From positions 1 through 64,000 of the forward strand of contig JANXCS010000006.1 of the NCBI GenBank assembly GCA_025060105.1: a DNA stretch of 64,000 bases. Reading direction: 5' to 3'. Below the pieces are notes generated by a model. It was not told the origin of the DNA, ran no database searches, and saw nothing but the letters and a program-made list of their open reading frames with translations. The position numbers and the translations under genes are program-made. Positions 6 through 14,177 of this stretch are shown here, one piece after another (position 1 is the stretch's first letter; every line of letters starts with the position of its first letter). Source of the DNA: Pseudothermotoga sp. GTDB taxonomy: Bacteria; Thermotogota; Thermotogae; Thermotogales; DSM-5069.

Positions 6-344
6 ATTGCCATCTCTTTCAGAGAGTATCTCTTTTCGGACAGCAGATTTATAAGTTTGGAGCCTGGGGGGTTTGTTATTATTGCCATCTCTTTCAGAGA
101 GTATCTCTTTTCGGACCATAGAAAGAAACGGGGTCCGTGGACTCCGAACGCTCGCTATTGCCATCTCTTTCAGAGAGTATCTCTTTTCGGACTGTTAAAG
201 CAGGTATATGAAGCAGGCGTCTGGGGGGTCTGATTGCCATCTCTTTCAGAGAGTATCTCTTTTCGGACTAGCGAATACATCGAAAGATATGGTTTAAAGG
301 GACTCCGTATTGCCATCTCTTTCAGAGAGTATCTCTTTTCGGAC
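6..344 (-). CRISPR. CRISPR array, 5 identical 36-bp repeats, open at left edge
   Basis: Five identical 36-bp repeats lie at 6-41, 81-116, 157-192, 233-268 and 309-344, with four unrelated spacers of 39, 40, 40 and 40 bp. On the plus strand the repeat begins ATTGCC and ends TCGGAC. Only five bases precede the first copy, so the array probably continues beyond the window. The right-hand copy is not degenerate, which suggests the right end (facing the cas operon) is leader-proximal and that transcription runs leftward, the same way as the cas genes; the strand given is inferred from this. The repeat contains TCTCT-AGAGA-TCTCT arms that can form two alternative hairpins. Confidence 0.97.
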
Positions 345-645
345 CGTGTTTTTTTGAAAAGATCATTAATTCAAAATTTCGGTAATCGAATTTCCAAACC
401 TAACGTTGTCGATGTTAGATGCAACTAAATATTTGGGGGTTTTGTTACTCTTTTTAGCTTGAGATGCGGTTTCGTAATCTCTGTACATGAAACGGCTTGT
501 CTGCATGATTCATATTTTTGGGATGTGGTCTGGAAATGTTTCATCTTAATGTAACAGTGTATCCAAATTTTGTTCAAACAAGCTTCAGATGTCTCTTCAC
601 TTGTCAAAGACCATAATTTTACGTACGTGGAACAAAGATCATGTC
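345..645. other. AT-rich gap between CRISPR array and Argonaute gene, candidate leader
   Basis: No convincing gene is seen in these 301 bases. The part next to the array (about 345-460) is AT-rich and would be the leader if the array is read leftward. It contains an imperfect inverted repeat at about 401-419 (CTAAC and GTTAG arms). No clear -35/-10 pair or strong hairpin terminator for the cas operon could be recognised, so the leader assignment rests on position and on the intact terminal repeat. Confidence 0.4.
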
Positions 646-2553
646 CTAGGGATTTTGATGTTGGAAATAGGGTATGTAGAGTTTCCATTCATCTTTCAAG
701 AGTGACACCTTATCGACAATGTAGATGGGATAAGGTAGCTTCAAATTCACGTATGGTGTCGGATGGAACAATCTGGTCGTGAGATAGATTTCGTATGCTA
801 TTTGCTCTTCAGAAAGGTTTGATCTGTTAGTATGGATATTTATCTCAACCCCTTTTTGCAAGTTGTACGTATCAGCAAAATAGATGTACTTGTTTTTCTG
901 GAGTTCTATTAGCTTTCCTTTCAAGTTCATGGATGAGTTTATGTTCGAGTTTTTGTTGATCTCAACTATCACATAATCCACTTTTAAGATATCTAGATGA
1001 TTTTTCAATTCTGTTGTGTCTTCTATGAACAATCCGTCGCGAATCAAAAAGAGTATTCTTGGTGGAACGCCATTTGAGAGTGTGTAAAGATCAATAGATC
1101 TAGCGATATTTTTCAACAGTAGGTTCATGTCTAGCCTTTCATCCAACTTTAGATTCAGTTCTTGATCAATGTACAGTATTTTTCCTTTAGAATCAACAGC
1201 CGCAAAGGCATAGTCGGATCGTCTTTTGTGATGATCATGACTCAGATCGAATCCAGTGTACAGCGCACCGTTTGAAAGACCAGACAAATAATACGGTTGA
1301 GATCCTGGAACAAAATTGATCGTTTTGTAAGCAAAACTCTTCAGAACGTAGACTTGATTTTCAACGATTTTCGAAACTAGAATGGGTAGAACTATAAGGT
1401 TCTTTGGGAATTTTTTCAAAAATTTTCCAAGGCCATTGTAAGTTTTCGAAAGAAGGACGATCACGACTGTTCCATTCGGTAGAGCTCCAAGTTTTTCAGA
1501 GTCTAAAAGCTCGAGGTCCTCTTCTCGATATAAAAATTCGACTGTTTCAAAACTCTGTACGTTGGGTACGATTGATCTTAAGGTCTTCATATAAATGGAA
1601 TTGTCTGAGATTAATTTGTCTATAAGTTGTTGCCTTTGCTCTTTTGAAAGCTTATCAGGAAGCAGGAGCACTATTCTCAATCGGCTGGGTTTGACTCTCC
1701 AGCCAAACTGAAAGACGTCTCTAACCTGGTTCGATTTACCTTTGGCAAATTGGTAGACAATACCAAAGTTCTTTATACTACCTTGTTTCAAAGAATAAGG
1801 TTTCTTTACATCGATCAGTTCTTCCAAAAACTTCAACTCAGTCGGTAACTTTTTGAACAGTGAGGGAATTTTATTCGTATAAAGTTCGTAAATTTCCTTT
1901 GAGATTTTCAATTTTTCCATTTCTTTAGGGGAGAAGTTGAAGAAATAGTTCTCAGGTTGAGAAACTTCTTTCTGGAAATGTTCGTTTATTTGTATGACGA
2001 GCTTTCCGTTTTCAATACAAACGAAGGGGAAAGATCTACCTGAAATAATGTTGAGCAGGAATGCAGACCTCACTGTTGAATGGAGTGCCGATTTGGTAGA
2101 TAGAAACACTAGACGGGGATTGATCGATAGATAAAATTTTTCGTCAATTTGATGGATTCCAATTCGATAAGCTTCGAAATAGGAGACTTCTGGATGGGTT
2201 CGTAACGGTGTTTTCGTTGCCAAGGAAATGTACAAATGTTGTGCTGCTTTGGCAAATTTATTGTCTTTGAAGAGTTTTTCGATATAGCTGTAAAGAGTTT
2301 TAACAAAGAGTGTCACGTCGTTTTCAACTATTTGCTCTTTCTTTTTGTACATGCTTGAACGCTCTGGTAATATCTTCACATTCCTGTTTGTAAGAGGCAG
2401 TTCAACCCAGACGAGATCTGAAGAGTGGACGAATCTTATGTTGTTCATCCGTGACATATTTCGAGCGAACTGTTCTGGAGAGCTTTCAGGGTTGTAATAG
2501 AAAATCCTTTTTACCTTGTCAGGGATGACGATTCTGTACAGATTCAGTTCCAT
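646..2553 (-). CDS. ago: CRISPR-associated prokaryotic Argonaute, Marinitoga (MpAgo) type
   Basis: Probable guide-directed nuclease of 635 residues, close to the 639 of MpAgo, which uses 5'-OH RNA guides to cut single-stranded DNA and RNA. The C-terminal PIWI domain shows GFDLSHD (D436), LDERL (E472) and IRDG (D506). The spacing D-36-E-34-D is the same as in MpAgo (D446, E482, D516), and the position matching its fourth residue N624 is D614 (YIVDK). The catalytic tetrad therefore looks intact, possibly as DEDD. The start is preceded by GAGGAGG eight bases upstream. The gene lies 13 bp after cas2 with its ribosome binding site inside that gap, so it is the last gene of the cas operon. The function in vivo, whether adaptation or interference, is not known from sequence. 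N, PAZ and MID regions are assumed from length. Confidence 0.92.
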   Translation of the reverse strand: MELNLYRIVIPDKVKRIFYYNPESSPEQFARNMSRMNNIRFVHSSDLVWVELPLTNRNVKILPERSSMYKKKEQIVENDVTLFVKTLYSYIEKLFKDNKFAKAAQHLYISLATKTPLRTHPEVSYFEAYRIGIHQIDEKFYLSINPRLVFLSTKSALHSTVRSAFLLNIISGRSFPFVCIENGKLVIQINEHFQKEVSQPENYFFNFSPKEMEKLKISKEIYELYTNKIPSLFKKLPTELKFLEELIDVKKPYSLKQGSIKNFGIVYQFAKGKSNQVRDVFQFGWRVKPSRLRIVLLLPDKLSKEQRQQLIDKLISDNSIYMKTLRSIVPNVQSFETVEFLYREEDLELLDSEKLGALPNGTVVIVLLSKTYNGLGKFLKKFPKNLIVLPILVSKIVENQVYVLKSFAYKTINFVPGSQPYYLSGLSNGALYTGFDLSHDHHKRRSDYAFAAVDSKGKILYIDQELNLKLDERLDMNLLLKNIARSIDLYTLSNGVPPRILFLIRDGLFIEDTTELKNHLDILKVDYVIVEINKNSNINSSMNLKGKLIELQKNKYIYFADTYNLQKGVEINIHTNRSNLSEEQIAYEIYLTTRLFHPTPYVNLKLPYPIYIVDKVSLLKDEWKLYIPYFQHQNP

Positions 2554-2566
2554 CGGTGAATCCTCC

Positions 2567-2854
2567 TCATATAACGATCACATCTTGGTCGAAGAAGCGC
2601 CCTTTATCCTTACCAATCGTAACTATTTTGTCTCTCACGCCTTTAGTTATTGGGTATATCCTCACCGTATCTTCTTCAGGTTTAATGCGTTTTTTAATAC
2701 CACGTACGAGTTGGTCAAGCTGTGATTCAGCGAGTTCTGTTTCGAAAACGCTGTATTGAACCCTCACACCGTAGCTTTCCAGGTAATCAGACAATTCTTT
2801 CCGTCTTTTATCGTCAGTCACATCGTAACTCACAACGAAAAGCACGTTTATCAC
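2567..2854 (-). CDS. cas2: CRISPR adaptation protein Cas2
   Basis: Small ferredoxin-fold protein of 95 residues that forms the Cas1-Cas2 spacer integrase with the upstream gene. It opens with a hydrophobic strand and the conserved SYDV motif containing the usual aspartate, followed by DDKRRKELSDYLESYG and VQYSVFE, both characteristic of Cas2. The start is GTG, and its GTGA overlaps the cas1 stop, so translation is coupled. The gene is followed after 13 bp by the Argonaute gene. Assignment is firm; whether it keeps any nuclease activity of its own cannot be told. Confidence 0.95.
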   Translation of the reverse strand: MINVLFVVSYDVTDDKRRKELSDYLESYGVRVQYSVFETELAESQLDQLVRGIKKRIKPEEDTVRIYPITKGVRDKIVTIGKDKGRFFDQDVIVI

Positions 2855-3849
2855 TTCCTGAAGTAGGGTATATAGTGTTCGTCTTCACCTAGTACTACGC
2901 GAGCGTAGTGCCTAGCTTGCTTTTCGAAAATCGTTCTCACATAATTCTCCTCGTCGTCCAGGTGGTATTTCATCTTGCTGTTCAAACGTTCCTCGAATTT
3001 GCTTATGAACCTTTTCAAAGCGTCTTTTGTGAAGTGAATTATTCCTCCTTCGATCTCTTCGAAATCCTGAATCGTGAACTCGTTTCTGTTGATCGCGTTC
3101 ACCACGAAACTGTCCACAAGTATGCATCTGTACTCCTCCGTGAGATCAAACAACAATGATTTCTTCGAAACGTCAACGGTATGCAAGTTCCCGAGGTATG
3201 GATCGAGCCCCACAGCGTTCAAAGCTGCTTCAATCTCGTTGTAAAGTAAGCTGTAACCAAGAGAAAGCATTGCGTTTATCGGATCTTTTGGAGGATGTGC
3301 GACCCGCTTTTCAAATTTGAACTGTTCACTCTTGAACAATTTTCCAAAGCCTTGGAAATAGTACCTTGATCCGATCCCTTCCAGTCCGATTATTTGTTCG
3401 ATGGTATCAGCCAAGGAGACTTTCTCGATGATTTTTCTCAAAGCTGCCATTTCCTCACCGAGGAAGCCTCGGGGTAGATTTTTACTCCTGTTGCTCAGAA
3501 AATCATAGTAGTTTTTTAATTTTCCAGTGACTATGGCTCGCGCCATTTTCAACTTGAAAGCAGCGTCGTTGTATCTTTCGTATTGTTTGAGTCTAAGCAG
3601 AACATTCCTATATTCATTTGTACAGAGTTTTCCTCTGTATTTGCCGTACTGGGTCATGAACACGACCTCGATCCCATTTTCCAAGAAGTAGTTGATCAAC
3701 TGGGTGGTCATCGATATCATGCCCATGAGATTGATCTTCTCGATTTTTTTGAGCGGTATCTCGGCTAAAATTTCACCTTGTTTTGAAACGATAAGCTTTC
3801 CGGATTCTTTGGAAAGTAAAGCACCTTGTTCGGTCACGTACAGTACCAT
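2851..3849 (-). CDS. cas1: CRISPR integrase Cas1
   Basis: Spacer-integrating endonuclease, 332 residues from the ATG at 3849, which has GAGGG about seven bases upstream. A GTG at 3861 that overlaps the previous stop is a less likely start. The N-terminus (LYVTEQGALLSK) is typical of Cas1. The metal-binding residues are visible: Glu in GLEGIGSRYYF, His in LGNLHTVD and Glu in LFDLTEEYR. It is a plain Cas1 with no fused reverse transcriptase or Cas6 domain. It sits between the primase-polymerase and cas2, an order reported for CRISPR-associated primase-polymerases in Marinitoga. Confidence 0.95.
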   Translation of the reverse strand: MVLYVTEQGALLSKESGKLIVSKQGEILAEIPLKKIEKINLMGMISMTTQLINYFLENGIEVVFMTQYGKYRGKLCTNEYRNVLLRLKQYERYNDAAFKLKMARAIVTGKLKNYYDFLSNRSKNLPRGFLGEEMAALRKIIEKVSLADTIEQIIGLEGIGSRYYFQGFGKLFKSEQFKFEKRVAHPPKDPINAMLSLGYSLLYNEIEAALNAVGLDPYLGNLHTVDVSKKSLLFDLTEEYRCILVDSFVVNAINRNEFTIQDFEEIEGGIIHFTKDALKRFISKFEERLNSKMKYHLDDEENYVRTIFEKQARHYARVVLGEDEHYIPYFRK

Positions 3850-3857
3850 ACTTTCCC

Positions 3858-5477
3858 TCACAAGATGATTTGTATCTCTCCGTTGTTTTTTCTGACGACC
3901 ATATTTTCCACGTGTATCTCATCATTTGTCATCTTTAAGGCTAAAATCGTTTTCAGCGTTTTTATTTGAACTTCAATTTCTGTTTTTTTCCTCGTTTTGT
4001 CCAAGATCTTTCTAACCAGATCTCTCACATCGACCTTTTGAAGTACGAATGAAAGACAGTCTACAGCAAAACAAATGGGACTGTTGAAGACCGTTTTGAA
4101 TTTACAGTTACAACGTTCCAAGCTCAAAGCGATGGATTTGTTCACGATTTGTTCTCTTATTTCTTCACAGCTTATGGGAATAGAATCCAAGCTGTTCAGA
4201 ATCGCTTCCAGTCTGTGTTGGGAATAGTTTATAGTGTTTTCAAGCAAACTAGTGAGGAATCTTTTCGATTCCTCGAGAAATCCACAAGCTGCGATCAGGA
4301 TGTATTCTTCATCGGTCGTTATGTAAGCGGATTTTTGAATCTTTTCAGCGATTTGGTTGAGGACATGACACGATTGGATCACGTGATTGATCGTGTCCGA
4401 AGTTTTTGCATGATCGATCTCACTTCTGATGATCTTCTTTATGTTCTTTTGAGTATTTTTTGGCTCATCAATGCGTGGAAGTTCATGCGAGTTTTGTTGC
4501 AACAAATCATTGTAGAGCCGTTCAAGGATCTTGACATCGTTTTGTTCCATTTTCATGAGGTACTCAAGTTGGTTGGAAACTGGTTCGAGATTTTTGTCCA
4601 CAAAAACACACCTGTTAGCCGTTTTTCTGTGAACACCGAGAGGTAACTTGATGAGATTACCAAGACCTCCAGCTGTGTCAGACTGCTTAGGAAAGATTTC
4701 TACGCTGATGTGTTCTGGTATGGAAATTTCAGAAACTATTCTTTTCAAAACTAGCCTTACTTTGTAAGCTTGAACCCACGTGTTGAAGAAGATCCACACG
4801 TGATAACCTTTGTTTCCGCTGAACTCGAGGTAGTGTTTGATGCCCTCGATTTCCAATTCTTTGCAGATTTGTTTAACCACCTCTTGACAGTTCAAAAGTG
4901 CCTTTTCTCGATCTTTCAAGACTGTGTCTTTGAGATCTACATCGAAGGCGGCGAATTTTATACAGTTGTCAGACCTCAACGGATACACTCCAATAGTTTT
5001 GGATCCTTCTAAATGATCAATGATGTCTCTTTCTTTCATCGGAGACCTCACTGGGTAGTATCCAGTACTCGTTTGAACGGCGAACACGTCTTCTCTACCG
5101 GAGAACAGTTCAAGAAATTTCTTGATGACACGTTGGTCTATTTGGTTCACTTTTAAATCGTTTTTGACAGGGTTCACCGTACCTAGTTTTTCGTAAATCA
5201 ATGCGGCTAGATCGGTCATTCCAAGTTCTTCGTAAACTTGTGCAAGTTTTTCCATGTACTGTTTTTCGGCTGTTTTTTGAACCAAGATTTCGAGAACTTC
5301 CCTCGCTTTCTCATAACGTTGAAACTCCAACAGTAAGTTGGCGTATTTTTGGAGTGAACCGTCCTCCACGCATAATTCGTTGAAGGCTTTTTCGTAGTAT
5401 TCAAGAGCTTTCACGAAGTCAAATTCTTCCTCTGCTTTCAAAGCCAACTCTTTGAAGTTCAAGGAATCACTCCTCAT
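3858..5477 (-). CDS. CRISPR-associated primase-polymerase (TPR + AEP + Cys-rich C-terminus), CAPP-like
   Basis: Protein of 539 residues. Residues about 10-100 are TPR-like helical repeats (EFDFVKALEYYEKA, YEKAREVLEIL). Residues about 110-310 are an archaeo-eukaryotic primase domain with the catalytic FDVD pair (D179, D181), SGNKGYHVWIF with H226, and KLPLGVHRKT at 277-286. The C-terminal part carries cysteines at about 370, 398, 437, 456, 458, 469 and 474 that could hold an iron-sulfur cluster or zinc. The family is known from Marinitoga, where such CAPP enzymes prime and extend DNA and bind Cas1-Cas2, implying a role in making or repairing spacers. The ATG overlaps the cas6 stop (ATGA); an in-frame TTG at 5462 has a better Shine-Dalgarno sequence (AGGAG) and could be the real start. 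Function is inferred from family and position. Confidence 0.88.
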   Translation of the reverse strand: MRSDSLNFKELALKAEEEFDFVKALEYYEKAFNELCVEDGSLQKYANLLLEFQRYEKAREVLEILVQKTAEKQYMEKLAQVYEELGMTDLAALIYEKLGTVNPVKNDLKVNQIDQRVIKKFLELFSGREDVFAVQTSTGYYPVRSPMKERDIIDHLEGSKTIGVYPLRSDNCIKFAAFDVDLKDTVLKDREKALLNCQEVVKQICKELEIEGIKHYLEFSGNKGYHVWIFFNTWVQAYKVRLVLKRIVSEISIPEHISVEIFPKQSDTAGGLGNLIKLPLGVHRKTANRCVFVDKNLEPVSNQLEYLMKMEQNDVKILERLYNDLLQQNSHELPRIDEPKNTQKNIKKIIRSEIDHAKTSDTINHVIQSCHVLNQIAEKIQKSAYITTDEEYILIAACGFLEESKRFLTSLLENTINYSQHRLEAILNSLDSIPISCEEIREQIVNKSIALSLERCNCKFKTVFNSPICFAVDCLSFVLQKVDVRDLVRKILDKTRKKTEIEVQIKTLKTILALKMTNDEIHVENMVVRKNNGEIQIIL

Positions 5478-6280
5478 TCGATGGGCAATCTCTCGATCTG
5501 ACCGAGTCCCATCGTCGTTTTGTACCCAACACCCGCAAAGAAGGCAAAATCGGCGAGCACGTTCGTGATTTTCAGTAGTTCTTGGTTGTTCTCTGGAACT
5601 TTGAAGATGACATCTCCGACGAATCCTTCGAGATAGAAATCTCTAAAAATCACCCGTTTGGATATGGTTTTCCTCTCGAGTATCGAAATCTCCTTGAATT
5701 GTTTTTCAATCTGCTGCTCTATCTTAAATTCGGAAAATTTGTTGAATTTTCTCAAAAGACTGAAAAAGACTTTCTCCGGCACAGGATATCTGTTATGTTC
5801 ATCTCCCGATCTGAAGAGCGTTGGTGTGTGGAACCTAAGTTTTATAAGGTTCGATTCTAATGGGCTGAGGAAGAGTTCTTGGGCAGATGCGTGTGCTGCC
5901 CATTTACTGTGCTCTTTGTCGAAGAATATCTCGACTATTCTGTAGGGTATGTTGCCTATTTTCATTTCCTGTCTCAGTGCATTTTTTTCTAGTAAACTCG
6001 CAATCATGGAATCGAAGATCTCATCGTTCAGCATTGTGATTCTTATGAAATAAAAGGAGTGTTTGTTGATGTGTATAGGCTCATCAACGTTAAGGCCTAA
6101 AAAGGATGAAACTGTGAACGGCTTTTCTTTTTTCTCATCGTGAAGTAACTTCGCCATTTTTGGATCGGACTTACTGATAAGGTCAAGAAAAAAACTGTGT
6201 ACTTTCTGACCGGGGTAAAAATCGTATACACCTTCATCTAAAGCTTGTAGTTTGATGACCACACTGTGAAAGATACGCAT
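5474..6280 (-). CDS. cas6: Cas6 CRISPR RNA endoribonuclease
   Basis: RAMP-fold ribonuclease that cuts CRISPR transcripts within the repeat, 268 residues from the ATG at 6280. The middle part has the Cas6 signature IKLRFHTPTLF followed by a helical stretch (PVPEKVFFSLLRKF), and the end carries the glycine-rich loop AGVGYKTTMGLGQ just before the C-terminus. Its stop overlaps the start of the primase-polymerase gene by four bases and it begins six bases after the DUF457-like gene. A catalytic histidine is expected near the N-terminus; H6 and H29 are candidates but cannot be decided by eye. Confidence 0.92.
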   Translation of the reverse strand: MRIFHSVVIKLQALDEGVYDFYPGQKVHSFFLDLISKSDPKMAKLLHDEKKEKPFTVSSFLGLNVDEPIHINKHSFYFIRITMLNDEIFDSMIASLLEKNALRQEMKIGNIPYRIVEIFFDKEHSKWAAHASAQELFLSPLESNLIKLRFHTPTLFRSGDEHNRYPVPEKVFFSLLRKFNKFSEFKIEQQIEKQFKEISILERKTISKRVIFRDFYLEGFVGDVIFKVPENNQELLKITNVLADFAFFAGVGYKTTMGLGQIERLPIE

Positions 6281-6286
6281 CACCCC

Positions 6287-7072
6287 TCAGCTTTTTGTAG
6301 ACTCGTTAACGGATTTCCTTGGTTGAGAAAATATCGCCGCGGCAAGGGCGTTGGAAGTGAACAGGCTTTGATGTTGTCTCATGGATAGACCATTGATACC
6401 TGTGTACGGCTTCGTTCGTGTGCTGAAAAGATTTGCATCTTTAGCGAAGTGTAAAAACAATCCAAGCCACATACCCGATATTGCAGCATTGTGATGTTTT
6501 TTTGCAAAGTTCAGAAAGGCTTGAAATAATTTGGACTTTGGAACATAGCCATGTTTTTCTGATTCTACCGCGAGTGCCACTAGAAATCTGATGACAAACT
6601 CGAGTGTTAGACCGATGAGTATGCTGTGTGTGAAAAAGTTCCTATGTTTTCCCACACCAAATTTGGTGTCGATATCCGGGAGTCCCCCTTCAAGATCAAA
6701 ACCACCGCTGACCAAGAAAGCAGACAACGCTACTATTGCAAAATCGATCGCGGTATCGACCTTTTGCTGTTGAGTCATGCTCTCCCAAGTCTTTTTAATC
6801 TTTTCTGCTCTGCTTTTCAGCTGGTCCTTCAGGTCGATCAACCACTTCTTCGGAGCGGCCCACTTTTCTTCTCTTACAGTTTTACAGAGATATTTTGTAA
6901 GCTTCACGGAGCTCACCACAGTGAATTTCATAAAACTGAAGATGTTTCTTATTTTCGTCTCGATCGTCACTCTCAAAGCTTCCTTGAGAGCATTAGAAGC
7001 TATCTCAGCCATTTTGTCATCTGAAATCAGATTGCGTAGAGCCAACAGATCTTGTTTAAGTTCTTCCTGCAT
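6287..7072 (-). CDS. Membrane-bound metal-dependent hydrolase homologue (YdjM/DUF457-like) within the cas operon
   Basis: Protein of 261 residues with a helical, charged N-terminal half (about 1-100) and a hydrophobic C-terminal half. The metal-site pattern of the YdjM/DUF457 family is visible: GGLPDID (D133, D135), GKHRNFFTHS (H143, H149) and LFLHFAKDA (H208, D212). Hydrophobic segments at about 108-124, 150-168 and 196-210 suggest a membrane protein. It has a good Shine-Dalgarno sequence (GGGGGAG) and lies between an extra RAMP gene and cas6 in the same transcript. No CARF or other ligand-binding domain was seen. The family is annotated as putative membrane hydrolases of unknown substrate; a role as a membrane-acting ancillary effector of type III immunity is only a hypothesis. 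Confidence 0.7.
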   Translation of the reverse strand: MQEELKQDLLALRNLISDDKMAEIASNALKEALRVTIETKIRNIFSFMKFTVVSSVKLTKYLCKTVREEKWAAPKKWLIDLKDQLKSRAEKIKKTWESMTQQQKVDTAIDFAIVALSAFLVSGGFDLEGGLPDIDTKFGVGKHRNFFTHSILIGLTLEFVIRFLVALAVESEKHGYVPKSKLFQAFLNFAKKHHNAAISGMWLGLFLHFAKDANLFSTRTKPYTGINGLSMRQHQSLFTSNALAAAIFSQPRKSVNESTKS

Positions 7073-7099: not shown

Positions 7100-7678
7100 T
7101 CACTCTTCACCAACTTCGAAAACCTCTACGTCTCCAAAACCATACTTTCTGTTTTCTCCAAAACCCGCGTATCGAGAAAATTTCATCAGGGCGGAGGCAT
7201 CTTCGTTCAACGTTCTGATAGTGATATAGGTGTTCGTCCTATCAACTTTCATTGAGGCAAAGAGATATTTTGGTTTGATATTTATACCGAGGAACATCGA
7301 AAAATCGCTGATGAGTTGTTTGAAACTTATGACGTCGGCGTCGTAAATCTTCAGAATGTACGTGCTCGGAGGTGTGAAGAGTTCCTTGGTGAGGGTCCAT
7401 TCAAAAAATGGGTTGTCTGATCTGAACGAGCTCTTCAATTCGTTCGGCAGGTTCAGTATGAAAAATCGAAAGAGAGCGGGTAATGGGCTAGATAGCACCA
7501 AGCAGTTACCGTGTTTAGTCCGAACCGGTCCCATTACCCGTAAAGTACCATCCGGCGCATTCAGAACGAACTCATAAATGGCTTCATTTATATCCTTGAT
7601 AAGTTTTAGGACATACTGCCATTTTTCTTCATGATCATTGAAGATTTCACTGGTGTAAATGGGAAATCTACCAATCAT
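7100..7678 (-). CDS. Additional RAMP-superfamily protein, Cas6-like C-terminus
   Basis: Protein of 192 residues from the ATG at 7678, whose ATGA overlaps the csm5 stop and which is preceded by AGGTGG; a start 24 bases further upstream is possible but less likely. The end of the protein shows SRYAGFGENRKYGFGDVEVF, a glycine-rich loop like that closing Cas6 and other RAMP proteins. It is too short for a normal Csm4 or Csm5, and all five Csm subunits plus a separate Cas6 are already present. It may be a second Cas6-like processing enzyme or an extra complex subunit. The general fold is fairly clear, the precise role is not. Confidence 0.65.
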   Translation of the reverse strand: MIGRFPIYTSEIFNDHEEKWQYVLKLIKDINEAIYEFVLNAPDGTLRVMGPVRTKHGNCLVLSSPLPALFRFFILNLPNELKSSFRSDNPFFEWTLTKELFTPPSTYILKIYDADVISFKQLISDFSMFLGINIKPKYLFASMKVDRTNTYITIRTLNEDASALMKFSRYAGFGENRKYGFGDVEVFEVGEE

Positions 7679-8745
7679 CGTACCACCTGGAACGCGAACC
7701 AACCGATCGGTGATATGATTTGACCGTTACTCAAAACAACCCTTCTGGAGAGAGGAGCCACATCATTTCCGTGGGGCTTTATCAAGTTTCTCACATTTTT
7801 TCTGAGTTGATCATCGAGCAGGATGAATAAACTGCAAGCTTTCAGTCCTCCGCCGTAACCTATGTGAATCTTGTTCGGTTGCTTTTTTAGTTCTTCAAGA
7901 ATTTGACGATATTTGGAATTTTCGTTCTTTAAATCTCTCAATTCGTCTTCTACAACGTCTGTGTACATTTCTCGGACGCAATCTAAAACCTGTTCGATCG
8001 ATCTTGGCACGTTTGAAAAATTTTTTGACAACTCCTTCTGAATCGCTTCTAAGCCGTTCATATCGAAAATAATCTCAACTTCCAGTTCAATAGATGGAGC
8101 GGCAGCTTCTATGAGGAAGGTGCGTTTTATAGAACCAGGATCGAGTCTCTGTGACTGAACCTTGACGATACCGATTCTCAATAGGCAGAAAGGTGTGTTG
8201 ATCAAGTTTGAATCTCTCACGATCAGAAACCTCGCGAAGTCAGAGCGAAGGTCGTTCTTGATCAATCTCAAGTGGTTGTTGATTTCTTTGGTGATGTGTT
8301 GCAATTCTTGTTTTCTTCTAGCCGTTCTCAAAGCGTTTGCAACCAAGTTTCTAAAGTAACCAACGTTCCTTTTCATCAAACAATACTCTATGGCAGTTCT
8401 TATGGCGCCTTTTATGGAACTACCGGGTATGTACATGGCACCTGAAGGGTGTTTTATCATCTGGAGGATCTCACCATCGATTGTCCCTACGTAGTTTTTT
8501 AACTGATAGAAAATGTCATTATCATGGTTTATTTCCTTATCCACCCTTTGAACAGTCTCGTTCACAATCTTTTTGAATTCTTTTCTGATGTTTGGATATT
8601 TGTGAAGAAGCCTGAAAAAAGACATGTCTCGAAGTCTGTAATATGTATCACCAATCTTCACGATTTGACAGGGAACGTATTTTTCACCAGAGCCTATGAA
8701 GAATGGGGTTAGCGATTTGAGTTTTAATACCACACTTTGTTTCAT
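7675..8745 (-). CDS. csm5: Csm5, type III-A effector subunit
   Basis: RAMP protein of 356 residues, the head subunit that binds the 3' end of crRNA in the Csm complex. The N-terminus LKSLTPFFIGSGEKY is the usual Csm5 opening, followed by the YIPGSSIKGAIRTAIEYC motif in which PGSSxKG is the RAMP signature, and later a glycine-rich stretch IGYGGGLKAC. It overlaps csm4 by ATGA at its start and the extra RAMP gene at its end, so translation is coupled through the csm block. Confidence 0.92.
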   Translation of the reverse strand: MKQSVVLKLKSLTPFFIGSGEKYVPCQIVKIGDTYYRLRDMSFFRLLHKYPNIRKEFKKIVNETVQRVDKEINHDNDIFYQLKNYVGTIDGEILQMIKHPSGAMYIPGSSIKGAIRTAIEYCLMKRNVGYFRNLVANALRTARRKQELQHITKEINNHLRLIKNDLRSDFARFLIVRDSNLINTPFCLLRIGIVKVQSQRLDPGSIKRTFLIEAAAPSIELEVEIIFDMNGLEAIQKELSKNFSNVPRSIEQVLDCVREMYTDVVEDELRDLKNENSKYRQILEELKKQPNKIHIGYGGGLKACSLFILLDDQLRKNVRNLIKPHGNDVAPLSRRVVLSNGQIISPIGWFAFQVVR

Positions 8746-9599
8746 ACTCCATCACCACCGAAGGCTACAGTGATCGGTGAGGTTTGAATGAAATAGTCTT
8801 CTATTTTGGCAAGGCCACGTCCTTTTATTGGAAATGGAAATGTGCTACCTTCCATAAGATAATTTAGATCTGCCTTGACTTGAACTGAATCTTTTTTGAA
8901 ACCTCGCTTCCTCACAACTTTATAGTAACCTTCGTTCAACCTCTCAATTTCATCTACGTTCGGTACAGATAAAGACAACGTGCAGTGATATTTCCCACCT
9001 TGCTCAAACAACTTGGGCAAATCGACCACTTTAAAGTTGAACAAGCCAAAACCATACGTTGAATCCCCACCGATACCACTGTCTGCCAAGATTCTCAGAC
9101 ACTCCATCAATAAGCGTTCATAGGTATCTGCAAATTCTAAAATTACGCACGGAACATAGTCTGGTTTGACATGAGCAACCTCTACGAAGTAGAGCATCGA
9201 TTTGTTGGTGTTCCTGTCTAGAGCATTTCTAGGGATATTCGTGACGATCACGGGTTGATCCATTAATGCAGATTCTTCAGGATTCTTCAAAGATAGCTTT
9301 GATAGATACACGTAGTTTGCATTTTTCAATCTTTTTGGATTCTCTAAGGAAAGAGAATCAAGGATCAAAGGCTTTGGAATGAGAAAATCGTTCGCGTGTT
9401 GGAAGATCAAAGAGGAACATTTCAAGCTTTTCGCAAAATTCTCAGCTTCCTCAGGATTGAGTTTGAATGCCCAGTAAACGAGAGCACCATGGATCGTGTC
9501 CGAATGAATCGTTGGGAGGGTAGAGTCAGATTCATCTCCCCTTCCTATCCTGAAACCACCCTCAAATTCGATGAGGATGAGTTTTTTCATTTCGATCAT
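8742..9599 (-). CDS. csm4: Csm4 (Cas5 group), type III-A effector subunit
   Basis: RAMP protein of 285 residues that caps the 5' tag end of the crRNA and contacts Cas10. The N-terminus carries IEFEGGFRIGRGDES and IHSDTIHGALVYW, typical of Csm4, and the glycine-rich STYGFGLFNF lies around residue 180. The ATG at 9599 overlaps the csm3 stop (ATGA); a second in-frame ATG nine bases on (9590) is better spaced from AAGGGA and may be the start used. It is followed by csm5 with a four-base overlap. Confidence 0.9.
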   Translation of the reverse strand: MIEMKKLILIEFEGGFRIGRGDESDSTLPTIHSDTIHGALVYWAFKLNPEEAENFAKSLKCSSLIFQHANDFLIPKPLILDSLSLENPKRLKNANYVYLSKLSLKNPEESALMDQPVIVTNIPRNALDRNTNKSMLYFVEVAHVKPDYVPCVILEFADTYERLLMECLRILADSGIGGDSTYGFGLFNFKVVDLPKLFEQGGKYHCTLSLSVPNVDEIERLNEGYYKVVRKRGFKKDSVQVKADLNYLMEGSTFPFPIKGRGLAKIEDYFIQTSPITVAFGGDGV

Positions 9600-10393
9600 C
9601 CCTTCAAAAGTTTTTGCTTCAGCTCTGAAACTCTTTCTTTCAAGCGTGAAACACTTTTATCCTTCAAATCAAAGGAAATCACATTTTGTTGTTCCCCTTT
9701 GTAATAACTTTCAGGTTTGACGATCAGCCTGTCTACTTCGAATCTAACTTTTCCGTATCCTCTAGATCCACTAGAACCGATGTAATCATCCTCGATCAGT
9801 TCAAGGGCAGTGAAGATGTTCCTGAGGTCTTCTTCGATCTCATCAGCTTTTTCAGCTGTGTAGATTATTTCAAATGAGAATTCAGCATTTGCTGGGACTC
9901 TTTCAAAGCTTCTTGGGCTTGCATGACAAGTTACTCTATCGAGAGCGTTTTCCATCTTCCATTCCGTGTACGGAGCATCTGTTTCCATTCTTTCCAAAGA
10001 TTCTCTCGATTCTTCTGTCAGATGAGCGTCTCTAACGATTATCCTGGAAGGTATGTTGGTCTTTTCATCATTGAACTTCGGTGAGGAGCCGAAGAGTCTG
10101 CAGATTTCACATTTAGTATCAGCACACTCATGCCTTCTGATAGCATTCTTACCAGAACCATGGAGTTTGAGTTCCTTTTTCTTCAACCTTTCCAGCAACG
10201 CTCTCATTTTTCCTTTCAGTGAACTTCCAGGCAAGTAAGGTTGACCAGTGAGTGGGTTTCTGATCACTGGGTTGTCAAGTCCCCCTATGGAGATACCTAT
10301 GTCCGATCCACCGACTCTTGTTCCACTTAAAAGGACGATCCGTCCAGAGATGATGTACTTGCCGAGTATGGGTTTGATGGATGTTTCGTTCAT
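9596..10393 (-). CDS. csm3: Csm3 (Cas7 group), target-RNA-cleaving backbone subunit
   Basis: Backbone RAMP subunit of 265 residues. The opening VGGSDIGISIGGLDNPVIR contains D40, which lines up with the aspartate that cleaves target RNA at 6-nt intervals in known Csm3 proteins (D33 in S. thermophilus). PYLPGSSLKGKMRALLE is the RAMP signature and GSSGSRGYGKV the glycine-rich loop. A C-x5-C-x2-C segment with an adjacent His (RHECADTKCEIC) may bind zinc. The catalytic aspartate is intact, so RNA cleavage is expected. The start overlaps the csm2 stop and has a GAGGAGG-rich upstream region. Confidence 0.95.
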   Translation of the reverse strand: MNETSIKPILGKYIISGRIVLLSGTRVGGSDIGISIGGLDNPVIRNPLTGQPYLPGSSLKGKMRALLERLKKKELKLHGSGKNAIRRHECADTKCEICRLFGSSPKFNDEKTNIPSRIIVRDAHLTEESRESLERMETDAPYTEWKMENALDRVTCHASPRSFERVPANAEFSFEIIYTAEKADEIEEDLRNIFTALELIEDDYIGSSGSRGYGKVRFEVDRLIVKPESYYKGEQQNVISFDLKDKSVSRLKERVSELKQKLLKG

Positions 10394-10842
10394 CTTCCTC
10401 TACCTCCTCTCTGAAGATTTTCATAATGTTCACTCTTCATTTGTTCGTAATATTTGACATAAGCAATTATAGAATCATAGAATTTTTTGAAAAATTCAAA
10501 ATCTTGGTGATCCTGGATTTTGTCTATAGCTCCACTCAACACATCCTGTAAATCTTTCAGCTCTTCTTGGCGCCCTGTTTGGTAAGCGAGAAAAGCTTTA
10601 ACAAAGATTATCTCATCGAGTATTTCTCTTTTGAATTTTTCTGAATCTTTTAAATATAAAGATCTGTTCATCGAATATCTGCTCCAGATCTTGGTTATAT
10701 GGCTGTGAAATCTTCTGATTTGTGTGATGGTTATTTTTTTATCAATGATGCCTTTGGCGACATTTTCTGAGAAACCGATCATTTTAGAGACATCCCAATT
10801 GGAAAGCTTTTGTAGACACTTAATTTCCTGTAAGTTAATCAT
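10390..10842 (-). CDS. csm2: Csm2 small subunit of type III-A complex
   Basis: Helical small subunit, 150 residues from the ATG at 10842; this start is six bases from AGGAGGG, whereas the ATG at 10848 abuts it. The sequence is lysine rich and helical, with the typical pattern KITITQIRRFHSHI then a long helix containing FVKAFLAYQTGR and a C-terminal FEFFKKFYDSIIAYVKYY. These features and the place between cas10 and csm3 identify Csm2. Its start lies inside the last codons of cas10. Confidence 0.88.
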   Translation of the reverse strand: MINLQEIKCLQKLSNWDVSKMIGFSENVAKGIIDKKITITQIRRFHSHITKIWSRYSMNRSLYLKDSEKFKREILDEIIFVKAFLAYQTGRQEELKDLQDVLSGAIDKIQDHQDFEFFKKFYDSIIAYVKYYEQMKSEHYENLQRGGRGR

Positions 10843-13012
10843 TTTCATCCCTCCTTGCCTTGAGATCCATCAACTGCATGACACTGTTTAATGCTGGAAT
10901 ATCTTTAGTTCTGATGAGCTTGACGAAATCTCTATCATTTTGGTTCTCTCGAGCTTCAATGTAAGCTAAAAAAGCCTTGTTTAAAGGTGATTCTTCCAGC
11001 GAAAGCGTTAGAATTTTTCTCAAAACGCTTCTATCCACAACACCAACTAGGCTCGATAGTTGTTCGTACGCAGGGTATGTCTTTCCAGCGAATTCACTCC
11101 ATTTGATGATTTGGGTCTTCTCTAGCTTCTTTCTTTGAGGATGTTTTTGTATACCGTGAGAAAAGACGAGACAATCTTTTCTGCTTTTTCCAAGTTTTTC
11201 GATGTATTCAGCCGTTTCCTTCACCTGAGAGATACTCTCCCTCTCATCAAACAGAACGAAGCCAGCAGTGTATGTGATCTTTTCGTTGTTTCCAGTGAAT
11301 TTTCGAAATTCGATCTGCATTTCATAAGTAAAACGAAGAACATCTTCCCAACCACCAACAACGAAAAGATCGTCTCCACTCGAGTAAACTATTGCAAGGT
11401 TCTTCTCCTCAGCGATTTTCGTGATTCTGTATTTGAAGAAATATGTGAAGAGTCTTGAAAGTGTACTGATTCTCGACATAGTTTTGATCTCTAAGCCGTT
11501 TTTGAATATGTCACCAAGGCTATCGATGTCAGCTTGGATGCATGCAAGTTTCTTTCCTGCCGATTCTTCAGCCATTTCCTCGAACTCTTCATGTTTGGCG
11601 TATCTCGCTATATCGATGAATACGAGTTTTTCAGAGTTTTCTGGATAATTTTCAGGAAGGGTCAGTACGTAACTGGTTGAATTGGAAGGCTCGTCACTGA
11701 AATCGTATTTTTCATTGAGTATTTCAAATTCTCCCTCTGGATCACGCACAAAGTATTTTGCTTTCACCATTCGTTTACCATATTCGTACATCTGTTTGCA
11801 GAAACCGCACACGATTGGTTCTTCATTTTCCCTTATCGGCTGTAAATCTCTCACCCTTTTTCCGCATACTTTACATGTTTGTAGGTTTTGAACGCTTTTA
11901 ATGTTCACAAGATCGAAGATCTCGTGAAGTTCTTCTTGAGAGTACATTCTGAGCTTTGCTTGACCCAATTTGTTCTTCAACCTTTGAAAAGCGTTGGAAG
12001 GATCCTTGACCTCGCTCAGTTTCATCGGTTCGCATTCTATGACCAGTTTGAGTTCAGGCGCTTTCTCGATGAGCCATCTGTTGATCTCGTTTTTCACTTT
12101 CAAAATTTTTTGAAAGTTTTGATTCGTATTGGACAAAACCAGATAGAAGTGTCCTCCTCCTATGTAGTGAACGTTCGTTCTGAAGAAGTTTGTTTCTTCG
12201 AGTATCTTGTCTACAATTATTTCTTGTAATACGTCTATGAAAAAACTACGACCCCTGAAGGAGCGCAGTGCACCTTTCGAAGAAACCTTCTTGATGAACC
12301 TTTGAATCCCAGAAACATCTCCTCCAACGAGTAGAAGAACTTCTTCTTCCGACAGCTTCTTAAGATCTCCATAATTATCGATTTTGATACCATTCGTCAG
12401 TATGTAGTCATAAAGCGAGAGTGCTATCATAGCGGTGACCTTCATATGGTCGTAGAGTGATATGTCCATAGTTCCAAGCTTTTGAGTTGACTGTGGTACG
12501 AAGGATAAATACCTGTACAGAAGAAATCTCAGATTTTCAATGTTCAATTTCAGTTTTTTTGCATCTTCTACGAGCATTTCGTAGAGTTTTCTGAAATCTT
12601 CTTCTTTCGCTACTTTTTTGTCCGTTGGTTGCTTCAACTCACCAACTGGTAAAGGTTCAAAGAAAGAGAAGCTGGTTGCATCCTTGTCTTTGTATATCCT
12701 TGCAAGAACGTTCTCAAGAGTTCTTAATTCTTCGAAACCTTCATCTTCTCTCGTTTGACGCTCAGAACTAGCCACGTTGTCGGCGTAACACACAAACCAC
12801 GTGAGTTTGTCGTCATCGAGATCGCGTTCATGATGTTTGAAGATGAATTTTTGATAGGGTCCAAAGATGTACTCATCGTTAACCTTGACATCCCTAACGA
12901 ATCGAGCACCCGCGATCGTGTGAGGCTCTTTTTGTAATCCCGCTCTTCTCACGAGTTTGCCTATATCGTGTATCAACGCACCGATGACTAGTTCTTCACG
13001 TTCGTTTTTCAT
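10835..13012 (-). CDS. csm1: Cas10/Csm1, HD nuclease and cyclic oligoadenylate synthase subunit
   Basis: Large type III-A subunit of 725 residues that senses target RNA, cuts single-stranded DNA and makes cyclic oligoadenylates. The N-terminal HD domain is intact (LIHDIGKL with H15-D16, H60/H61, and CYADN with D78). The first Palm domain begins near GGDVSGIQRFI (230-240). A zinc ribbon is formed by C380-x2-C383 and C402-x2-C405. The second Palm domain has ADIDSLGDIF (494-503) and the cyclase motif YSSGDDLF, so GGDD reads SGDD here (S545-D548), with both aspartates kept. The start has GGAGGTGA upstream. The upstream CARF gene would be the receiver of its signal. Confidence 0.95.
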   Translation of the reverse strand: MKNEREELVIGALIHDIGKLVRRAGLQKEPHTIAGARFVRDVKVNDEYIFGPYQKFIFKHHERDLDDDKLTWFVCYADNVASSERQTREDEGFEELRTLENVLARIYKDKDATSFSFFEPLPVGELKQPTDKKVAKEEDFRKLYEMLVEDAKKLKLNIENLRFLLYRYLSFVPQSTQKLGTMDISLYDHMKVTAMIALSLYDYILTNGIKIDNYGDLKKLSEEEVLLLVGGDVSGIQRFIKKVSSKGALRSFRGRSFFIDVLQEIIVDKILEETNFFRTNVHYIGGGHFYLVLSNTNQNFQKILKVKNEINRWLIEKAPELKLVIECEPMKLSEVKDPSNAFQRLKNKLGQAKLRMYSQEELHEIFDLVNIKSVQNLQTCKVCGKRVRDLQPIRENEEPIVCGFCKQMYEYGKRMVKAKYFVRDPEGEFEILNEKYDFSDEPSNSTSYVLTLPENYPENSEKLVFIDIARYAKHEEFEEMAEESAGKKLACIQADIDSLGDIFKNGLEIKTMSRISTLSRLFTYFFKYRITKIAEEKNLAIVYSSGDDLFVVGGWEDVLRFTYEMQIEFRKFTGNNEKITYTAGFVLFDERESISQVKETAEYIEKLGKSRKDCLVFSHGIQKHPQRKKLEKTQIIKWSEFAGKTYPAYEQLSSLVGVVDRSVLRKILTLSLEESPLNKAFLAYIEARENQNDRDFVKLIRTKDIPALNSVMQLMDLKARRDEND

Positions 13013-13016
13013 ATGT

Positions 13017-14177
13017 TCACCTCCTTTCTTTCAAAATTTTTTCGATCTTTTCTTTGACACACTCTAAAAATCTGTTTCTTCCAATCACCGTATGAACGGT
13101 GAGGAATCCCATCCCCTTTTTGCTTTTGAGTATGATTTTCAAATGGTCTGCTTCTATCCAGATGTCGTAACTATCTCCACTTTCCTTTTCAGAGGTTCCA
13201 GTTATTCTCACGGTTTTTACCCAAGGGAGCTTCGCTATTTCCTCGATGATGTTTTTGTTGTGCTCTTTGAATTTGGTTCCGTGCCTGATATCCGTAATGA
13301 TCTTATTGGAAAAGTCTTCTTCGCACATGTAATCTTTATCTTCAATGGTTGAGCAGTCCCACTCGATGGTTTGAAGGTATATTTCACCGAGGGGGTTCAA
13401 AGACAAGCAGTTTTTGTTGTCCAAGTTTACTCTCTCTATGAATATCTTCAATTCGTTCGGCACGGCACCCCAATTTCGGAAACCAAACTTTTTGAGAAAG
13501 CTTTCTTCGTCTGTCGTATTTATGTATTCAAGGTATGCGAAGATGCTTGAATAATTTTTGTACACGTTCGGATCGAACTTCACAGGTATTGGAAGCAGTT
13601 CTATTATTTCATCGAAGGTTTCGAAGAGATAATAAACAGGTACGTTCAAAGCTTGTCCGAGAAGAGTAGCGTAGGCAATGGTTGCTTTGTAACCACCGGT
13701 GGCATTGATGATACTGTATTCCAAATGATTTTTGACGCATCTGGCCATCTCCCTGACCAGATTCCTGAGGCCTTGGAATTTGAATTCCAAACGATTTCTG
13801 TTGTCTAGTTTATCGATTTTCACGATCTCTACGCTGTTGAAGTCTAAACCGTTTGTGTTGTTTTCAAAATATATTTTGAGGATGTTTCCCACAAGGCTCC
13901 CCTCGGGTGTGTCAGAAACCAACAAATACATTTTCTGACGAGCAGATAGGAATCCTTTTTCAACCAGGCTAGCGACTGAATTGATCTCAGCACCCCAGAT
14001 GTAGTTTCTTGGATCTTCAATTTTCCTCACAATTCGAGCAACTTCGTCAAATTTCCCCAATTTTGCAAATTCGAGTATTTTTTTCGGTTCTTCTGGAGCA
14101 TTGAGTTTGCTAGCGTTACTGAGAAAGCTTGCACCAACTGTGCACACTAAAGTGTTTCTATACTTTCCAAGGTCCAT
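13017..14177 (-). CDS. CARF-domain cyclic-oligoadenylate effector, APE2256 family, RelE-like C-terminus suspected
   Basis: Protein of 386 residues and first gene of the cas operon. Residues 1 to about 195 are a CARF domain of the Cas_APE2256 type: VCTVGASFLSNA at the start and INATGGYKATIAYA at 157-170, the loop that grips the cyclic oligoadenylate. Residues about 235-270 resemble a small winged helix (LSLNPLGEIYL). The last ~95 residues (HGTKFKEHNKNIIEEI, then GDSYDIWIEADHLKIILKSK and TVHTVIGRNRF) could be a RelE-type mRNA interferase, as in CARF-RelE proteins such as Cami1. No HEPN R-x4-6-H motif was found, so it is not a standard Csm6. The C-terminal call is tentative. The start has GAGGTGA upstream. 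Confidence 0.82.
   Translation of the reverse strand: MDLGKYRNTLVCTVGASFLSNASKLNAPEEPKKILEFAKLGKFDEVARIVRKIEDPRNYIWGAEINSVASLVEKGFLSARQKMYLLVSDTPEGSLVGNILKIYFENNTNGLDFNSVEIVKIDKLDNRNRLEFKFQGLRNLVREMARCVKNHLEYSIINATGGYKATIAYATLLGQALNVPVYYLFETFDEIIELLPIPVKFDPNVYKNYSSIFAYLEYINTTDEESFLKKFGFRNWGAVPNELKIFIERVNLDNKNCLSLNPLGEIYLQTIEWDCSTIEDKDYMCEEDFSNKIITDIRHGTKFKEHNKNIIEEIAKLPWVKTVRITGTSEKESGDSYDIWIEADHLKIILKSKKGMGFLTVHTVIGRNRFLECVKEKIEKILKERR

Follow-up and report, generated by a model that had tools for sequence, protein, structure and literature searches.

What CRISPR-associated Argonautes do in the cell has been an open question since the first account of MpAgo, and the window analyzed here, the first 64,000 nt of contig JANXCS010000006.1 from a Pseudothermotoga sp. 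genome (GCA_025060105.1; G000 below), raises the question again, as an Argonaute gene closes its CRISPR operon: does such a protein serve interference against invaders, or the making of CRISPR memories? Comparing the locus with its relatives, we favor, at a probability of about 0.6, an RNA-guided single-stranded DNA nuclease dedicated to the adaptation module of Cas1, Cas2, and the CRISPR-associated primase-polymerase (CAPP), with co-inheritance pointing to the adaptation side. If this is right, RNA-guided Argonaute cleavage would be joined to CRISPR memory formation.

The CRISPR operon of the window is the only one in its genome: a genome-wide profile search returned one cas1 and one cas10-type gene over the family cut-off, and no cas3 scored over it. 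Carrying just one cas1 and one cas10, the genome is a simple background for testing what the Argonaute does. The operon occupies the minus strand without a break between 14177 and 646, with 13 genes and intergenic gaps of -28 to +27 nt, and the presence of Cas10/Csm1 with csm2 to csm5 places it in type III-A. The preliminary description had made ago the last gene of a type III-A operon, which proved correct, with a leader and an array lying beyond it; the companions it named (a Csm set, Cas6, and a primase-polymerase) are all present, though it omitted the CARF protein, csx22, an unknown gene, and the array at 6-344. The ribosome-binding region that it described as shared with the end of cas2 is also real, since the TGA stop of cas2 lies within the ago Shine-Dalgarno sequence TGAGGAGGA, 13 nt upstream of the Ago ATG. 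In operon order, the features are as follows:

13017..14177, minus strand: CARF effector, CARF7 with a DUF2103/RelE-like C-terminus (structure search and PADLOC)
10835..13012, minus strand: cas10/csm1 (HD, as HDIGK, and SGDD motifs present)
10390..10848, minus strand: csm2 (profile match)
9596..10393, minus strand: csm3 (profile match)
8742..9599, minus strand: csm4 (profile match)
7675..8745, minus strand: csm5 (profile match)
7100..7702, minus strand: csx22, with a Cas6-like C-terminus (PDLC01475, 170.6 bits)
6287..7072, minus strand: unknown 261-aa gene (no family match)
5474..6283, minus strand: cas6 (profile matches)
3858..5477, minus strand: CAPP type A1, TPR-AEP (NF040561, 495.6 bits)
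2851..3861, minus strand: cas1 (profile matches; in the Cas1 clade that co-occurs with Ago and CAPP)
2567..2854, minus strand: cas2 (profile matches; stop overlaps the ago ribosome-binding site TGAGGAGGA)
646..2553, minus strand: ago, long-A Argonaute of the MpAgo (MID-OH) family, 635 aa (NCBIfam, Pfam, PADLOC, phmmer, fold)
345..645, minus strand: leader region, from the Ago stop to the first repeat (sequence)
6..344, minus strand: CRISPR array with five 36-nt repeats, GTCCGAAAAGAGATACTCTCTGAAAGAGATGGCAAT (repeat detection; goes on at the start of contig C9)

CAPP adjoins cas1 and cas2, scores well above the NF040561 cut-off of 200 bits, and keeps catalytic residues D179 and D181 in an AFDVD motif. 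Csx22 ends in a Cas6-like, glycine-rich C-terminus, YAGFGENRKYGFG, and gives a weak Cas6 profile match (E 0.001), which makes it a possible Cas6-like RAMP. The 261-aa protein had no match in Pfam, NCBIfam, or PADLOC, and its gene, inserted between csx22 and cas6, was not found in the related loci examined, including the closest related operon (L024); a histidine-rich stretch, KHRNFFTHS, recalls membrane-bound hydrolases. Downstream of ago, a leader of about 300 nt is followed by an array that runs off the contig end, and contig C9 opens with six further repeats (L030:18-440), the final one degenerate. The ends of contigs C6 (window:1) and C9 (L030:1) very likely join, the assembly breaking inside the array. 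On the operon strand, the last 8 nt of the repeat past its hairpin are ATGGCAAT, the expected crRNA handle, and spacers of the window array measure 39-44 nt.

Judged by its sequence, the Argonaute is a catalytically intact, full-length member of the MpAgo family. Its frame at 646-2553 is open over the full length from an ATG start, and the protein scores 705.6 bits against NCBIfam NF048006, just above the cut-off of 700, and 763 bits against PADLOC PDLC01134 ("PIWI, linked to type III systems"), from neither of which it differs at family level. Pfam returned MpAgo_N-like and Ago_MID_bact, the latter at E 1.1e-16. Alignment to MpAgo, the check that the preliminary description had proposed, was significant (phmmer against 5I4A, E 9.2e-134 across residues 3-629, 40% identity) and covered MID and PIWI; homology is full length, taking in the N, PAZ*, MID, and PIWI domains, and the AlphaFold2 model (pLDDT 83) has 5UX0 as its best PDB match (TM 0.89). 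Residues D436, E472, and D506, singled out in that description for their MpAgo-like spacing, align with MpAgo D446, E482, and D516, with spacings of 36 and 34 in both proteins (MpAgo numbering is that of the L022 sequence from G043, whose Ago is seemingly identical to MpAgo in alignments). The description had missed the fourth position, D614, which completes a DEDX tetrad and corresponds to N624 of MpAgo. In all nine proteins compared, at 34-53% identity to the window Ago, a tetrad of D, E, D, and then D or N is intact.

The Ago family, its linkage to cas1-cas2, and the MpCAPP-MpAgo-Cas1-Cas2 complex are already known (PMC6299218, PMC8211822), so the novelty that the preliminary description implied does not stand; what is added here, the III-A setting and the strict behavior as a module, refines a known family. 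A 2018 mBio survey found nine MID-OH Argonautes and tied them to III-B neighborhoods (PMC6299218), and in our sample III-A genes lie beside the module in G000, G063, G073, and G077. Compared with MpAgo of Marinitoga piezophila (5I4A, 5UX0), the window protein belongs to the same family over its full length, with the same catalytic spacing, CAPP-Cas1-Cas2-Ago module, and repeat family, but it carries DEDD where MpAgo carries DEDN, its MID domain is strongly diverged and without Y379 at the aligned position, and it stands in a III-A Csm operon rather than a III-B Cmr neighborhood. The Ago of G063 (L024), which we take to be possibly TpAgo of Pseudothermotoga profunda, is 53% identical, is likewise DEDD, and sits in a III-A operon of the same order minus the 261-aa gene; the G063 genome, however, carries an additional cas1 as well as a gene for Cmr2, against one cas1 and one cas10 in the window genome. 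CAPP A1, Cas1, Cas2, and Ago also share one operon in the CAPP-Cas1-Cas2 complexes of Zabrady et al. (2021; PMC8211822), whose experiments concerned M. piezophila (III-B), the one species in which the physical complex has been demonstrated, whereas the window module ends a continuous III-A operon.

Ago and its module partners are inherited together. Among 103 Thermotogota genomes, one per species and some of them incomplete, the Ago family occurs in ten (nine proteins over the curated cut-off and one on a cut contig), and CAPP A1 scores over its cut-off in the same ten, with no genome having Ago or CAPP alone; by genus, 7 of 38 have both and none has just one. The probability of such an overlap by chance comes out at 4e-14 per genome set and 8e-8 by genus, values that are too small given shared ancestry. 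In a tree of 100 Cas1 proteins from these genomes, all ten Ago-linked Cas1s fall within one 11-member clade with a long stem and support of 100. The eleventh member is an orphan cas1 in G069 (L183:9795-10808); it lies beside IS-like genes, and a search of about 10 kb around it for cas2, CAPP, Ago, and an array found none, which marks it as a likely relic of a lost module. All eight arrays found beside modules carry one 36-nt repeat family, whereas the repeat of the second G077 array is different and 30 nt long. A motif scan of GTDB contigs for relatives returned two Thermotogota loci only, both already in the sample, and scans of plasmid and viral contigs for Ago relatives returned none.

The effector beside the module is far less constant. 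Csm genes of one lineage accompany it in G000, G063, and G077 and those of another lineage in G073, Cmr genes accompany it in four genomes (G040, G043, G053, G066), and G075 and G076 have no effector beside it, their cas10 genes being elsewhere in the genome. G077, of family f2, falls in the f10 Marinitoga-type group in the Ago, Cas1, and CAPP trees alike, and the Csm genes next to its module group as sister to the Csm genes of G000 and G063. Because the effector varies while Ago occurs in step with Cas1, CAPP, and the repeat family, Ago follows the adaptation module and not the interference complex or Cas10. That it travels with spacer-capture genes in every relative found suggests that it helps make CRISPR memories. 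Two roles had been put forward in the preliminary description, and this co-variation favors action on the nucleic acids that feed adaptation; guides from CRISPR transcripts are nonetheless compatible with it, since the array co-varies too. Because whatever co-varies with Cas1 also co-varies with the array and its crRNAs, the pattern does not separate adaptation from crRNA-guided interference.

Work on the Marinitoga proteins indicates how a link to adaptation might operate. MpAgo is an RNA-guided nuclease that uses 5'-OH guides and prefers single-stranded DNA over single-stranded RNA targets (PMC5435312, PMC6279821). CAPP, Ago, Cas1, and Cas2 of M. piezophila were recovered as one complex, MpCAPP binding MpAgo via its C-terminal part and MpCas1 via the rest, and Ago was proposed to supply nicked DNA to CAPP; integration by MpCas1-Cas2 in vitro was achieved without Ago (PMC8211822). 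For the window module, we envisage that Ago with a short RNA guide would cut invader single-stranded DNA exposed by transcription or replication, that CAPP would prime or extend at the Ago product to give duplex prespacers, and that Cas1-Cas2 would insert these at the leader-proximal end of the array adjoining ago, with Ago activity expected to raise acquisition. Candidate guides would be trimmed crRNAs, with their Cas6-made 5'-OH ends, or RNA fragments from the CARF effector. Cas6 cleavage is metal-independent and leaves 5'-OH ends.

Those same ends could instead arm Ago directly, so that, loaded with crRNAs or their trimmed products, it would act alongside Csm as another effector that cleaves DNA or RNA of invaders. 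We regard this as possible while leaning clearly against it. Both cas6 and the array are at the same operon, the repeat family co-varies with Ago, the 5'-OH guide preference of MpAgo (PMC6299218) fits the chemistry of Cas6 cleavage, and CRISPR memory has been proposed as a source of MpAgo guides (PMC6279821). An untrimmed crRNA, however, would be an awkward guide, because its 8-nt handle ATGGCAAT would fill guide positions 1-8 and be left unpaired with the protospacer; guides in MpAgo crystals are 21 nt long (PMC5435312), against spacers of 39-44 nt here; and Ago is tied to no single effector lineage, with none in cis in G075 and G076.

Guides drawn from existing memory would also matter if type III systems used Ago for RNA-guided, primed-like spacer acquisition, which we consider unlikely. 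Ago would then be directed, by crRNAs already present or by RNA fragments that cyclic-oligoadenylate-activated RNases produce, to cut single-stranded invader DNA at or near known targets, where CAPP-Cas1-Cas2 would capture new, overlapping spacers, and overlapping non-identical spacers in module arrays would be the trace of the process. Such spacers occur in four of the five module arrays having at least nine spacers, with about 3 similar or overlapping non-identical pairs in the window array (6-344 with L030:18-440), about 7 in L024:5000-7915, about 10 in L025:11120-12508, and about 2 in L029:14027-15573; control arrays, which are partial and smaller than the module arrays, gave 3 similar pairs in 14 arrays. 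Within the window array, CCCCCCAG and CGGAGTCC each recur in three spacers. The resemblance may come from hot spots that were sampled more than once or from targets that vary. Spacers had no match among phage sequences, and in 11 genomes of the family they matched nothing but the array itself. Scans of viral sequences with one pattern gave six matches of 17 nt, a length near chance, and a second pattern gave none.

Module arrays also contain spacers with perfect terminator-like hairpins (stem at least 7), 13 of 118 against 1.2 expected, including L030:54-97 and 134-174 in the C9 part of the window array and others in L024, L025, and L027; in controls, 5 of 135 spacers had them, including three from L188, another type III array. 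A general excess of structure in Ago-array spacers was considered and set aside, mean fold z-scores not differing significantly from those of controls (p 0.24).

The CARF protein (13017-14177) is likely the cyclic-oligoadenylate effector of this operon: its nearest solved structure is Cami1, a cA4-activated RNase (E 6e-14, with weak global similarity, TM about 0.55), and PADLOC ranks CARF_DUF2103 as its best family and CARF_RelE second. RelE-type cleavage leaves 5'-OH ends. Activated Cas10, which keeps its HD and SGDD motifs, might thus make cyclic oligoadenylate that turns on the CARF effector, and the RNA that this cuts might supply Ago with guides against transcribed invader DNA. We think this chain quite improbable, as the C-terminal domain is of DUF2103 type, the structural match is loose and the RNase activity putative, and beside several other family members no similar CARF gene turned up.

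Very improbable, in our view, is stand-alone defense against plasmids and phages with guides from general RNA decay, the place in the operon reflecting only co-expression in a defense island. Most long-A pAgos do act without CRISPR (PMC6299218), but no family member lies away from cas1-cas2-CAPP in the 103 genomes, and MpAgo physically binds CAPP (PMC8211822).

The window Ago has evolved faster than its sister protein, above all in MID. It sits on a long branch of the Ago tree (0.75, against 0.27 in its sister from G063), with the branch excess largest in the L2-MID part (MID branch 1.82 vs 0.49), and its MID is 32% identical to that of G063, compared with 53-63% in other parts of the protein. 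In MpAgo, K403 and K418 hold guide phosphates 2 and 3, and Y379 stacks on the base. Both lysines have equivalents in the window Ago, K395 and K410, and the Y379 column holds T371, with Y372 adjoining, at a place where the alignment is weak. With the MID diverged and the stacking aromatic absent at the aligned position, we infer the 5'-OH preference of the window Ago only by extrapolation from MpAgo, and its guide binding may differ. The 32% identity led us to consider a swap of the MID domain, which we rejected since trees built from MID alone still group G000 with G063, if weakly. Decay or repurposing, with a fast-evolving Ago losing guide binding, would fit the long branch and the MID only 32% identical to that of its closest relative, but it is highly improbable given the full-length frame, intact DEDD, Pfam MID match (1.1e-16), and well-predicted fold.

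Other genes were seen beside related modules. In G076 (L027:1664-14527) and G075 (L028:2-10197), which have no csm or cmr genes beside the module, a viperin-like radical SAM protein is encoded between cas2 and ago, and the modules are divergent from a gene for a 1525-aa RNA-polymerase beta-beta' fusion (cut at 1379 in L028). In L027, the polymerase fusion is followed by an unknown 258-aa protein and an RtcR-like sigma-54 activator; G066 and five genomes that lack Ago encode the 258-aa protein as well. The fused polymerase was dropped as a general guide maker because it lies beside two Ago loci only and its 258-aa partner also occurs without Ago. Beside the Marinitoga-type module of G043, a 563-aa protein (L022:11245-12936) combines a STIV B116-like C-terminus (PF08960) with a weak Csa3-type Rossmann match, and so is probably a fusion of the CARF/ring-nuclease type.
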